A stretch of DNA of 62,263 nt, taken from NCBI GenBank assembly GCA_001644045.1, contig LUUF01000061.1:1-62263 (forward strand), given 5' to 3'. The stretch's first letter is position 1; every line of letters begins with the position of its first letter. The position numbers and the translations under genes were made by a program. The DNA is from Methylomonas methanica. Lineage in GTDB: Bacteria > Pseudomonadota > Gammaproteobacteria > Methylococcales > Methylomonadaceae. Shown piece by piece: positions 50,877 to 62,004 of this stretch. The notes under the pieces were generated by a model. It saw nothing but the letters and a program-made list of their open reading frames with translations, was not told the origin of the DNA and made no database searches.

Positions 50877-50953
50877 CGCGGGGTGGAGCAGCTTGGTAGC
50901 TCGTCGGGCTCATAACCCGAAGGTCGTAGGTTCAAATCCTGCCCCCGCTACCA
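50877..50953 (+). tRNA. Initiator tRNA-fMet (CAT anticodon)
   Basis: The 77-base gene folds as a cloverleaf with CCA encoded. Initiator features are present: an unpaired first base pair, an anticodon stem ending in three G-C pairs (CGGG-CTCATAA-CCCG) and the CAT anticodon. The first pair is C1 with T72, where E. coli has C1 with A72; both prevent pairing. The 3' part from base 28 of the tRNA is repeated at 61910, because an element has integrated here and rebuilt the gene's end. Confidence 0.95.
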
Positions 50954-50998
50954 GACAAATCAAAGGCTTAGGTTTAACAACCTAGGCCTTTTTTGTTG
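50904..50998 (+). repeat. attL: direct repeat copy 1
   Basis: This 95-base stretch runs from inside the anticodon stem of tRNA-fMet through the CCA end and the terminator. It is identical to 61910-62004 except for one base (A at 50979, G at 61985). It is the left attachment site of the integrated element. Crossover probably occurs in the anticodon-loop part, as is common for tyrosine integrases that use tRNA genes. Confidence 0.9.
50962..50995 (+). terminator. tRNA terminator inside attL
   Basis: AGGCTTAGG pairs with CCTAGGCCT (one G-T pair), loop TTTAACAA, followed by six T. It ends the tRNA transcript. The same terminator is present in the right repeat, so the element carries a copy of the whole tRNA 3' end with terminator. 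Confidence 0.85.
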
Positions 50999-51012
50999 TG
51001 AGAAGCTTTCTG

Positions 51013-51029
51013 GTAAGCAAATGGTAAGC
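51013..51029. repeat. Paired GTAAGC sites near attL
   Basis: Two GTAAGC hexamers start 11 bases apart, 15 bases inside the left repeat. The same pair with the same 11-base step occurs near the integrase start (61766-61782), and a GTAACC version lies just outside the right repeat. They are candidates for arm-type integrase or excisionase binding sites. Confidence 0.55.
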
Positions 51030-51213
51030 GGATTTGGGATATAGCAATCAACCAATGTTGTGACTTCTCGTCCAAGCGCTTTGCAGGCTGGTGAAAAACC
51101 CGCTCCTATCGACTCGCTTAAATATGGCGAGGTTAAATGCACAGTGCATTCTGTGCTTGAGGATGGCGACGATTTTCTAGCAGATGGCTCAAGAATTGAT
51201 AGCTGCGACCAGT

Positions 51214-51246
51214 AAAGCCGATAACCTGCGAAGGCTAACGGCTTTG
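51214..51246 (-). terminator. Hairpin after the RDD-Sel1-trypsin gene
   Basis: Read on the minus strand, AAAGCCGTTAGCC pairs with GGTTATCGGCTTT (one mismatch) around a TTCGCA loop, 60 bases after the stop at 51307. No T run follows. Its AGCC-TTCGCA-GGTT core is shared with the terminator at 54083-54112, so the island reuses one hairpin family at gene ends. Confidence 0.5.
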
Positions 51247-51306
51247 ATTAGTTAAGTGTCGCTATGCTGGGTCGATCAGTTCGTCATTATCCCCGGCCTG
51301 CCATCA

Positions 51307-60072: not shown

Positions 60073-60372
60073 TCAATTCTCCAGACTTTTCAAAATGGTT
60101 TGGGCTTTTTCAATATCCCTGTCTTGGGTGGATTTGTCGCCGCCAACCAGCAATAGAATTACCTGCTGATTGCGTACCGTGTAATAAATCCGCAGGCCCG
60201 CACCAAAGAAGCAGCGCAATTCAAACAAATCGGCGGATAAAGGCTTGTAGTCTCCAAAATGGCCGTTTTCCATTCGCGCTAGCCGTGACAGCAATTGGTT
60301 TTTGACTGTCCGGTCTTTCAATCCAGATAGCCATCGGTTAAAAGTTTGGGTACTCTGCAATTCGTATTTCAT
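60073..60372 (-). CDS. RelE/ParE-superfamily toxin
   Basis: This 99-residue protein has the RelE-type start Phe-Asn-Arg-Trp-Leu-Ser-Gly-Leu-Lys-Asp, Arg-Leu-Ala-Arg-Met-Glu-Asn-Gly-His-Phe-Gly-Asp, and the strand pair Leu-Arg-Ile-Tyr-Tyr-Thr-Val...Leu-Leu-Leu-Val-Gly-Gly-Asp-Lys. This subgroup is often annotated as addiction-module killer protein, probably an mRNA interferase. It lies just downstream of the integrase and would stabilise the island against loss. Confidence 0.85.
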   Translation of the reverse strand: MKYELQSTQTFNRWLSGLKDRTVKNQLLSRLARMENGHFGDYKPLSADLFELRCFFGAGLRIYYTVRNQQVILLLVGGDKSTQDRDIEKAQTILKSLEN

Positions 60373-60417
60373 GGATTACTGTATCTTAAAGGAAACACTT
60401 GTCAAGTGATATGGTCG

Positions 60418-61731
60418 CTATTTGACGACACGCAAGCCTTGCACCTGCTCAGATTGCGCAAATTCGACGCCTGCCTGTTCCAATATCCAAGCCTCGTATT
60501 TGCCGTGCCAAATAGCTAAAAGTTCAAGCGGTCGGCTTTTGTAATGGCGTTCGGCGGTGGCGTTTGGTTTGTGTCCCATAATTTGCGCGACTACACCGAC
60601 CGGCATTTCTACCCATTCGGCCAAGCTGGCAAAGGTGCGGCGTAATCCGTGCAAAGTGACATGCTCCAGGCCAGCGGCATCAAGGGCTCGATTGTGGGCA
60701 ATACGGGGCTCTGCCAGCTTTCCATCTGCGGCGGTGGGGCTACTGAATACCCATTGATTGCGCCGGGGCAGGGCGGTTATCAGGCTGGATACATGAGGTG
60801 TTAATGGAATCATGCGGCCTTCATCTTCGACCTTGTCCTTTACCCACATGCCGCCAATTTTGAAATTAACATCGGTCCATTTCAGTTCGGCCAACTCTTC
60901 GCGCCTGGCTCCAGTAAGTAATAAGCCTTGCAGGTAGGCACTGATAATGGGGTTGCTCAGGTCGCGGACCGCTGCAAACCAGTCTTGCAATTGAGCAAGA
61001 TGTAATACGTCAAGCGTTTTCGATTGTCGGCTGGGTACTTTCTTTCTGAGGCCTTGATTCTCGACCGCCAGCACGTCAATCAGTGTTTTATAGTCCTTTT
61101 GCTGCCCACACCAACGCCAGAACGCACGGAACATTTCGAAGCCTTGGCGGGCATTATTGGCGCGGGCTTGTGCTTCCCGTATTTGCCAGTCTGTAAGCAC
61201 CTCGGCGCTTATATCAACCATGCGCATCCGTAACAGCGGATAAAGTACACCCTGTACCGTTTTGCCTGTGCCGCGCTTTTTGGGTTGTCCGCCCGCTTGT
61301 GACAGGTTTTGATGGTCTTTTAGGTGGCGTTCGCCCCAACAGCCTGTGTTATTTGCAATGTAATCATTCCAAGCCGTTTGAACTGTAATGGTGTTGCGGA
61401 TAGCTTCGGCTTTTGCCTGTTCTCTAGCTGCTTCGTCCTGTGCTGCTTGTTCAGCTTTTTTCTGGCGGGGGTCGTGGCCTTGGTCAATTAAACCCTGCAA
61501 GCGCCTTGCTTCTTCTCGCACAGCCTCTATTGTCCATGTTGCCGGCTTACCGATGGTAACGCGAATGGGTGAGCCGGTAGCGAGACGACTTTGAAGGATG
61601 TACTGCTTCGAACCTCCTGGGGAAGCTTTGAGCCCCAAGCCAGGCTGCTCAGTGTCCCACATAAATTCGGATGATTTGCCGGATGCACATTTGAATGAAT
61701 CAACCCGGCCTGCCGTGAATTTGATACGCAT
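60418..61731 (-). CDS. int: Tyrosine integrase of the island
   Basis: The 437-residue recombinase has an N-terminal arm-binding domain (about 1-90, DUF4102-like), a core-binding domain (about 115-220) and a catalytic domain. The catalytic residues are Arg276 (Thr-Gly-Ala-Arg), His361 and Arg364 (His-Gly-Leu-Arg), His387 (Met-Gly-His-Lys) and the nucleophile Tyr397 (Arg-His-Tyr). It is read away from the right attachment repeat, 179 bases from it, and should integrate and excise the island at tRNA-fMet. Its start region carries paired GTAAGC sites that may let it regulate itself. Confidence 0.93.
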   Translation of the reverse strand: MRIKFTAGRVDSFKCASGKSSEFMWDTEQPGLGLKASPGGSKQYILQSRLATGSPIRVTIGKPATWTIEAVREEARRLQGLIDQGHDPRQKKAEQAAQDEAAREQAKAEAIRNTITVQTAWNDYIANNTGCWGERHLKDHQNLSQAGGQPKKRGTGKTVQGVLYPLLRMRMVDISAEVLTDWQIREAQARANNARQGFEMFRAFWRWCGQQKDYKTLIDVLAVENQGLRKKVPSRQSKTLDVLHLAQLQDWFAAVRDLSNPIISAYLQGLLLTGARREELAELKWTDVNFKIGGMWVKDKVEDEGRMIPLTPHVSSLITALPRRNQWVFSSPTAADGKLAEPRIAHNRALDAAGLEHVTLHGLRRTFASLAEWVEMPVGVVAQIMGHKPNATAERHYKSRPLELLAIWHGKYEAWILEQAGVEFAQSEQVQGLRVVK

Positions 61732-61765
61732 TTGACTACTCCCAAAAGTCTTACCGGGAAAACCA

Positions 61766-61782
61766 GTAAGCAGATAGTAAGC
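61766..61782. repeat. Paired GTAAGC sites upstream of the integrase gene
   Basis: Two GTAAGC hexamers start 11 bases apart, 35-51 bases before the integrase start. They match the pair near the left repeat in sequence and spacing. The rest of the 61783-61909 gap is AT-rich and would hold the int promoter. Confidence 0.5.
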
Positions 61783-61909
61783 AAATTATATCAACAATTG
61801 GGAATTTATAGAAATACCGCGACAACAAAATAATTGCGTAAACGACTGTTATTTATTGTTTTTAATCGGCTTTAACAACATCAATCAACACGGATAAATC
61901 TTATTTTGT

Positions 61910-62004
61910 TCGGGCTCATAACCCGAAGGTCGTAGGTTCAAATCCTGCCCCCGCTACCAGACAAATCAAAGGCTTAGGTTTAACGACCTAGGCCTTTTTT
62001 GTTG
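61910..62004 (+). repeat. attR: direct repeat copy 2 (tRNA 3' remnant)
   Basis: This is the second copy of the 95-base tRNA-end repeat: anticodon stem to CCA plus the tRNA terminator, with one mismatch to the left copy. It cannot encode a full tRNA because the 5' half is missing. It marks the right end of the island and was the original chromosomal 3' end of the gene. Confidence 0.9.

Follow-up and report, generated by a model that had tools for sequence, protein, structure and literature searches.

A putative phage satellite at tRNA-fMet of a probable methanotroph, with its own small terminase gene and a P4-type leader

Does a compact stretch of DNA behind a bacterial tRNA gene move with the help of phages, or is it the remainder of a prophage or a plasmid? 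Contig LUUF01000061.1 (62,263 nucleotides, analysed in full and hereafter called the window; it is the complete contig C61 of the 115-contig Methylomonas methanica assembly GCA_001644045.1) raises this question with an island of ~11.1 kb, 50904 to 62004, inserted at tRNA-fMet. The island is very probably an integrated, intact phage satellite. Its most likely way of moving is in particles borrowed from other phages, because it has integration, replication-type and packaging-recognition genes but no recognisable shell genes; the first-pass annotation had read it in the same way, as an element with replication-type and packaging genes of its own and no capsid, and our results support that reading. 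The host is probably a methane-oxidising bacterium.

An island without recognisable shell genes

The island is bounded by direct repeats of the tRNA-fMet 3′ end, as first proposed; both copies were located, and their sole mismatch is at 50979 (Table 1). The GC content is 45.6% within the island and 52.0% to the left of the tRNA. Over 1.4 kb the left flank shares 79% identity with Methylomonas fluvii, and in M. fluvii EbB (L010) the same chromosomal locus holds a remnant with a truncated integrase match and a toxin-antitoxin pair that is 96–97% identical to the pair of the window.

Table 1. Features of the island and its integration site in the window
Feature	Position	Strand	Evidence or remark
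tRNA-fMet (CAT), integration target	50877..50953	+	ARAGORN; Rfam 61.1 bits; 3′ end completed by attL
attL, 95-bp direct repeat	50904..50998	+	1 mismatch to attR
Cargo, RDD – Sel1 repeats – trypsin-like protease, 861 aa	51307..53892	-	Pfam RDD 8e-12, Sel1 1.8e-67, Trypsin_2 1.3e-21
p93, second gene behind the C4 leader	54183..54464	-	39% identity with the L228 gene that follows p97
p97, first gene behind the C4 leader	54461..54754	-	matches in 12 of 150 relatives
C4-type antisense RNA (RF01695)	54807..54890	-	44.9 bits, gathering 45, E 4.3e-6
isrK-like segment and C4 a1/b1 target sites (RF01394, RF03163)	54928..55017	-	37.8 and 31.7 bits, gathering 50 and 46.7
terS (TerS182), small terminase subunit, 182 aa, no terL in island	55756..56304	-	phrog_1206 TerS E 0.0015; IMG/VR synteny
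p417, long helix and compact C-terminal helical domain	56327..57580	-	AF2 model
p118	57540..57896	-	weak partial matches (25–32%) in 3 of 100 relatives, unused
Five-site array TGTCCGAATACCGGGAA, putative iteron origin	58080..58222	.	four direct sites and one inverted
Winged-helix putative replication initiator, 156 aa	58224..58694	-	structure model, mean pLDDT 79
p205, AlpA-position regulator or excisionase candidate with extra C-terminal part	58846..59463	-	N-terminal relatives in siblings
Antitoxin, HI1420 type	59792..60076	-	TIGR02684 2.3e-30
Toxin, HI1419 RelE/ParE type	60073..60372	-	TIGR02683 3.4e-33
Tyrosine integrase, 437 aa	60418..61731	-	Pfam Phage_integrase 8.5e-15, Arm-DNA-bind_3 1e-10
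attR, 95-bp direct repeat	61910..62004	+	1 mismatch to attL

Ten island open reading frames (ORFs) were compared with Pfam and PHROGs, toxin and antitoxin with Pfam, and toxin, antitoxin and eight others with NCBIfam. The ten ORFs matched no capsid, portal, lysis or large-terminase family at E ≤ 1, so that neither the set expected of a complete prophage (large terminase subunit [TerL], portal, capsid, tail) nor the capsid and large terminase of a capsid-forming phage-inducible chromosomal island (cfPICI) is present. Two tail-type matches, of p93 to a baseplate family (E 0.12) and of p118 to a tail fibre family (E 0.26), were set aside as chance level. Across 38 proteins from four related islands, the commonest 25 of 63 PHROG families belong to integration, to replication or to no known function, and none is structural. 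Nor are homologues confined to prophages: the bounded islands L041, L042 and L046 hold relatives of the winged-helix protein and L021 one of p417, with no structural family among the matches listed.

These results bear on the possibility that we are looking at a decayed temperate prophage which lost its structural genes and kept its small terminase subunit (TerS) by chance. Relatives of TerS and of the winged-helix protein do occur in phage contigs as well, and one reading frame, at 55167-55709, looks interrupted. The pattern of substitution argues otherwise. Eight of the 11 gene pairs that we compared have a finite rate of synonymous substitution (dS; Nei-Gojobori), and in all eight the nonsynonymous rate (dN) lies well below it (dN/dS 0.03–0.18); in the other three the synonymous sites are saturated and the proportion of nonsynonymous differences (pN) is below that of synonymous ones (pS). 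Examples are the winged-helix gene against that of L042 (dN 0.14, dS 1.67), the integrase gene against L004 (0.08, 0.58), the toxin and antitoxin genes against L010 (0.02, 0.57 and 0.02, 0.74) and terS against phage L049 (0.46, 2.58). Compact islands with intact attachment (att) repeats recur elsewhere, again with no structural family among the matches listed, and the geometry of the array described below is conserved. In good agreement with the first-pass annotation, which had named decay as the chief alternative and argued against it, we consider a decayed prophage improbable.

Packaging genes and the likely helper

How would an island without a capsid gene leave the cell? The annotation had pointed to a putative small terminase gene without a large subunit, and relatives in IMG/VR now give this identity firmer ground. 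TerS182 is related to proteins of L049 (54% identity) and L050 (38%), and the gene after the L049 relative encodes a large terminase (phrog_2, E 3.1e-53). Among the best 80 of 598 IMG/VR loci with an L049-type TerL, 29 carry a relative of TerS182 (31–54% identity), in every case directly upstream of TerL (L072 partial); some of the loci lacking a relative begin at or near TerL and hence cannot show one. The resulting TerS182 alignment holds 21 sequences. In phage L054, which has a TerS of this type, portal, head-morphogenesis, major-head and connector genes come next in line; no such gene follows terS in the island. A TerS profile found no TerS in the PDB (best E 0.014). That the relatives are phage genes is a caveat, yet this is what would be expected of a hijacked packaging signal. 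On these grounds we think it likely that the island TerS redirects the TerL of a helper, and the family points to phages with an L049-type TerL as the candidate helper group. A PF17289 terminase, tried as a helper sign, occurs in one of the eight genomes that host related islands (G002, at a distance from L041) and shows no helper.

The neighbouring gene product, p417, was sought in IMG/VR, the related genomes and annotated phage records. Neither a single-sequence search nor alignment A1 found a relative in IMG/VR, and none was found in 50,697 phage records; the sole relative found is p358 of L021 (G031), 26% identical overall and 39–40% over the C-terminal 70–80 residues. A profile of the p417 C-terminus run against 19,092 ORFs of the loci under study recovered p417 and p358 only. 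One weak match in a scan of 369 genomes of the class (E 4.7e-4) was rejected as coiled-coil chance: it falls in a chromosomal ORF of 479 aa whose start is signal-like, located (by eye) between oxidoreductase/thioredoxin-like and tig-clpP-clpX-lon-like groups. The AF2 model of p417 contains a 138-residue helix (residues 37-174) and a C-terminal block (361-417) with means of 80–90, compared with 56 for the whole model, which is weak.

The element L021 spans 12.7 kb, with 26-bp repeats at its ends and no tRNA found. It has an integrase, an int-alpA RNA, helicase-type matches (pooled scan) and, 430 bp before p358, a DUF5681 gene (4.3e-12); L041 has a DUF5681 gene, 57% identical to that of L021, after its array. 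We sampled 30 DUF5681 loci from the best 80 of 216 confirmed in IMG/VR, and 23 of them have an ORF of ≥300 aa just downstream, of which at least 16 match TerL (counting phrog_2 alone). Because DUF5681 commonly precedes TerL, p417 and p358 are, in both known cases, close to a predicted TerS-type gene of their island. The likeness of p417 to scaffold proteins is our assumption, and p417 is at most a tentative candidate for a head or packaging factor.

Replication module, docking end and leader

The first-pass annotation had also described a winged-helix gene with iterons, and both elements stood up: the structure model shows a winged helix, and the array exceeds chance, with five sites against 0.13 expected and none of 100 shuffles reaching five. 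The 17-bp sites are ordered as two, an inverted one and two, with AT content between sites of up to about 0.65–0.70 per 20 bp. Their spacing (43/30/32/21) is identical in the window, L041 and L042, in each case directly 3′ of the winged-helix gene; L043-L045 have an altered motif in the same place and L046 has a different repeat (by eye). Relatives of the protein occur in seven of 150 related genomes (34–81% identity), and six neighbourhoods were read. Three are bounded islands with perfect repeats: L041 at tRNA-Arg (46 bp, 5.3 kb), L042 at tRNA-Lys (48 bp, 6.5 kb) and L046 at tRNA-Asn (47 bp, 9.8 kb). No att pair was found in L043, where the locus runs to the contig end, and no att repeat in L044 or L045.

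Is the array an origin or an operator? We favour the origin, which we hold to be reasonably likely. In Gram-negative phage-inducible chromosomal islands (PICIs) the iterons lie immediately 3′ of rep, as described in PMC6092414, and the island repeats this arrangement, the likeness being one of layout only. A further PICI trait, an AT-rich region between two iteron sets, is ambiguous here, to judge by the order and AT content given above. Among annotated phages the winged-helix protein matched two records, and its relative in L051 (PP003913.1, 16 kb) is annotated as replication protein O, with O-like PHROGs at 2.1e-5; moreover, in several siblings a gene for a primase or an AAA_25 helicase occupies the corresponding region. 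The competing view, that the element is a satellite in which the array is the operator of a p118-p417-terS operon and the winged-helix protein a regulator, is kept because in the window, as in L041 and L042, the last site is followed by a TATAAT box (by eye). The structural comparison leaves room for it too. With Foldseek, the model had no match at E ≤ 0.001 in PDB or BFVD, and the structure rows include LexA, MarR-type and other regulators. The top 50 VIA rows list 4pql (DNA-binding protein by its title), 4pt7 (initiator) and 5kbj (Rep-DNA complex) beside TFIIE, LexA and others; we claim no family from the structure because these rows are mixed and close in Z. Weighing both sides, we rate the operator role as a possible but clearly less likely one.

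Two of the contigs with relatives deserve mention in their own right. PP003913.1, Pseudomonas phage vB_Pae_U1, has integrase, cox, initiator and primase genes and no annotated structural genes, and may itself be a satellite or island. L048 (IMG/VR 3300040801_006061, 1-9037) combines an integrase, an AlpA-like gene (by eye), the winged-helix gene, TerL (phrog_9, 9.9e-59) and a major head gene (phrog_617, 8.2e-22), and judging by this gene content it looks like a cfPICI using the same initiator type.

An iteron replicon next to a toxin-antitoxin pair is also reminiscent of plasmids, and a plasmid-like integrative element would have winged helix and array as its replicon, conjugation as its means of movement and TerS as a passenger. 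A distant match of the winged-helix protein in plasmids (28%) speaks for this view, and its rarity, a single record among 72,556, speaks against it. The Pfam, PHROGs and NCBIfam scans found no relaxase family (oriT was not sought), and a true TerS and a C4 RNA are features of phages or satellites. We therefore regard a plasmid-like element as very unlikely.

At the other end of the island, the integrase of the initial claim carries the two Pfam domains given in Table 1, and the toxin-antitoxin pair proposed alongside it is of the HI1419/HI1420 type by TIGR02683 and TIGR02684; PADLOC additionally matched the toxin to NsnC (1.3e-5). A scan of one genome per species yielded 17 integrase relatives (55–86% identity) in Methylomonas, Methylomicrobium, Nitrosomonas, Burkholderiales and other proteobacteria, the best in Methylomonas, and in 11 of the 17 loci tRNA-Met lies downstream on the opposite strand. 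Over 19 loci (the 17 relatives, L227 and C67, a contig of the window's own genome), copies of the att core number at least two in nine, one in six and none in four; relatives with a duplicated core are found in Methylomonas, Nitrosomonas and Burkholderiales. The N-terminus of p205 is 40–59% identical (best segment) to mostly short post-integrase proteins in 10 of the 17 sibling loci, and the int-alpA RNA (RF02996) is present in eight of 13 related loci. Inner genes vary: a primase in L004, AAA_25 helicase genes in L006 and L014, and a TerS (phrog_57, 4.5e-14) in L012. Since the siblings hold differing genes between integrase and tRNA, the docking end is, as gene order indicates, a platform common to them, while the inner genes change.

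A close sibling is found in the same genus (L227, genome G027), where an element at tRNA-fMet has att copies 11.9 kb apart. Its integrase is 73% identical to that of the window, followed by toxin (43%), antitoxin (40%), AlpA-like protein (33%) and p97 (31%), and it also has a C4 RNA (as L216). TerS182, p417, p118 and the winged-helix protein all lack a relative there at E ≤ 0.01; a p358 match (E 0.003, opposite strand) was taken as chance.

The island may not stand alone. In the last 259 bp of the window, right of attR (62005-62263), we found 90% identity to L004 over 149 bp, core included, and 85% to L006 over 54 bp; since related elements have similar sequence at their inner end, the island may be followed by a second one in tandem. 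A further att-core copy without the 5′ part of the tRNA lies near the start of contig C67 (G000:C67:1718-1809, L040). In a Burkholderiales metagenome-assembled genome (L009), three att-core copies (8671-8726, 6412-6461 and 16558-16623) suggest stacked elements at tRNA-fMet.

The leader is the part of the island that recalls P4, as the first-pass annotation had noted. With relaxed Rfam thresholds, C4, isrK and c4-a1b1 stand in a row upstream of p97 and p93. Matches to p97 in the related genomes are distant (25–36% identity, E up to 0.008, at E ≤ 0.01), and in 10 of 11 loci a C4 RNA above its gathering threshold lies upstream of p97 on the same strand (exception L226), with isrK-like segments adjoining it. 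It is because of these loci that the C4 of the window is credible: its score sits at the threshold and, taken alone, is borderline. The order p97 then p93 recurs in L228; p93 matched no Pfam, PHROGs or NCBIfam family at E ≤ 0.001. C4 and p97-like genes occur in L228, L230 and L231 (G035, G016, G049) within elements that have large primase/helicase-sized genes, L231 also having a tape-measure-like ORF (all by eye). Going by these loci, C4-controlled elements look common in this bacterial family.

Behind the leader lies the cargo, whose RDD, Sel1 and trypsin domains are all present as first described. PADLOC matched RT-Protease_XI (3.7e-14) over its trypsin domain and PtuA1 (6.5e-6) with no separate stretch; a role in defence is possible. 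At E ≤ 1e-40 one relative in 100 shows a match, and that a partial one, so that the cargo cannot serve as the trait of a family: integrase, att site, AlpA position and C4/p97 support the proposed satellite family, and the cargo does not. The apparently interrupted frame at 55167-55709 is on the plus strand, opposite to the other island genes; it comprises a short secreted-type frame and a second frame of 132 aa, and by eye looks like one interrupted gene.

Several observations weigh against a PICI-like satellite with a P4-type leader. The scanned island ORFs matched no primase or helicase family in Pfam or PHROGs. For TerS, annotated phage records returned only invertases at chance level (E 0.2 or more). 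The TerS182 type was found in no other island; two matches span 38–39 residues (E 0.006–0.009), and L229 (G063, 8064-8255), whose element carries p97 and a DUF5681 gene as well, has a stretch of 73 residues at 27% identity (E 3e-4). The own genome has neither a PF03237 match nor a relative of the L049-type TerL (only these two were sought), and among 150 related genomes that TerL has one match, at 26%; because of the empty result in the own genome, an L049-type helper does not seem to be resident in the assembly, and the helper would be lytic or absent. The winged-helix gene also lies beside TerL and capsid genes in L048, and it occurs in L047, which is phage-like by eye. p205 scores 13 bits against Pfam HTH_17, where the cut-off is 27; the AlpA-like regulator of the first-pass annotation accordingly survives in position and N-terminal likeness and falls short as a family match, and because of that score its label is a weak, positional assignment. 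The int-alpA RNA is not listed for the window at E ≤ 1. At default gathering thresholds Rfam shows the tRNA only, C4 being 0.1 bit under and isrK and c4-a1b1 well under. Finally, the selection pairs cover only the winged-helix, integrase, toxin, antitoxin and terS genes.

A possible life cycle and comparison with known satellites

We propose the following course of events. When a helper phage enters or is induced, p205 and the integrase would cut the island out in circular form. Replication by host or helper enzymes would start when the winged-helix protein binds the array. The island TerS would then dock on the helper TerL, so that island DNA is packaged in helper particles, and p417 might assist packaging or head assembly. 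In P4 and P1 the C4 RNA is an antisense regulator, and here it would stop the island's own leader transcript before p97/p93, keeping the element quiet and immune until the helper signal. The toxin-antitoxin pair would stabilise the island, and the RDD-Sel1-protease would be cargo.

What is known of satellites comes mostly from bacteria of clinical relevance, according to PMC10803314. Our results suggest that bacteria which oxidise methane or ammonia have their own satellites; if true, phage predation and gene transfer would be three-sided in bacteria of the carbon and nitrogen cycles. More speculatively, and rather less probably than not, these satellites could form one modular lineage of methane and ammonia oxidisers. 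It would have a fixed dock (tRNA-fMet integrase, toxin-antitoxin, AlpA) and swapped replication and packaging cassettes, in which the TerS type (TerS182, DUF5681 or phrog_57) chooses the helper, p417/p358 is a scaffold-like coiled-coil factor for packaging or head size, and C4 is a helper-sensing switch.

How does the island relate to the satellites already described? P4-like satellites integrate at tRNA genes, have a C4 antisense RNA leader and a primase-helicase, and measure about 11 kb. The island shares the tRNA site, the size and the C4-type leader, the latter with a borderline score, but differs in having a TerS of its own, in matching no primase-helicase of the alpha type, and in that no sid, psu or delta family is among its matches.

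With Gram-negative PICIs, as described in part of PMC6092414, it has in common a specific att site with an integrase, a regulator in AlpA position, an initiator with repeats immediately 3′, a TerS (found in some PICIs), near-unidirectional transcription, a size of about 10 kb and the lack of structural genes. Unlike them, it matches no primase plus rep and no fused Pri-Rep, the winged-helix protein being all that was found; its AlpA is weak and has an extra C-terminal part, and it adds the C4/isrK leader, p417 and a probable methanotroph host. PICIs are further marked by attachment sites that prophages do not use and by induction and packaging that depend on a helper. PICMI, which integrates at fis and has a primase (PMC10803314, in part), is likewise small, with an integrase, an AlpA-type gene and no capsid genes; the island differs in its tRNA-fMet site, in its TerS and in that no primase was found. 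As for cfPICIs, L048 joins integrase, AlpA-like gene and the same winged-helix type to TerL and capsid, whereas the island has no TerL, capsid or portal match. PMC11389934 names further groups, among them VEIMEs, Tycheposons and soil satellites; the comparison here covers the four kinds above. The open-access literature yielded no report pairing Methylomonas or Methylococc- with satellites, nor tRNA-fMet with TerS.

Because the primase feature fails, the island is not filed as a PICI, though it would work like one. It mixes parts that are usually separate: the C4 switch is of P4 type, TerS and the origin layout are of PICI type, and a primase seems to be lacking. Taken as a whole, the island is with good probability best explained as a Gram-negative-PICI-like satellite with a P4-type switch.

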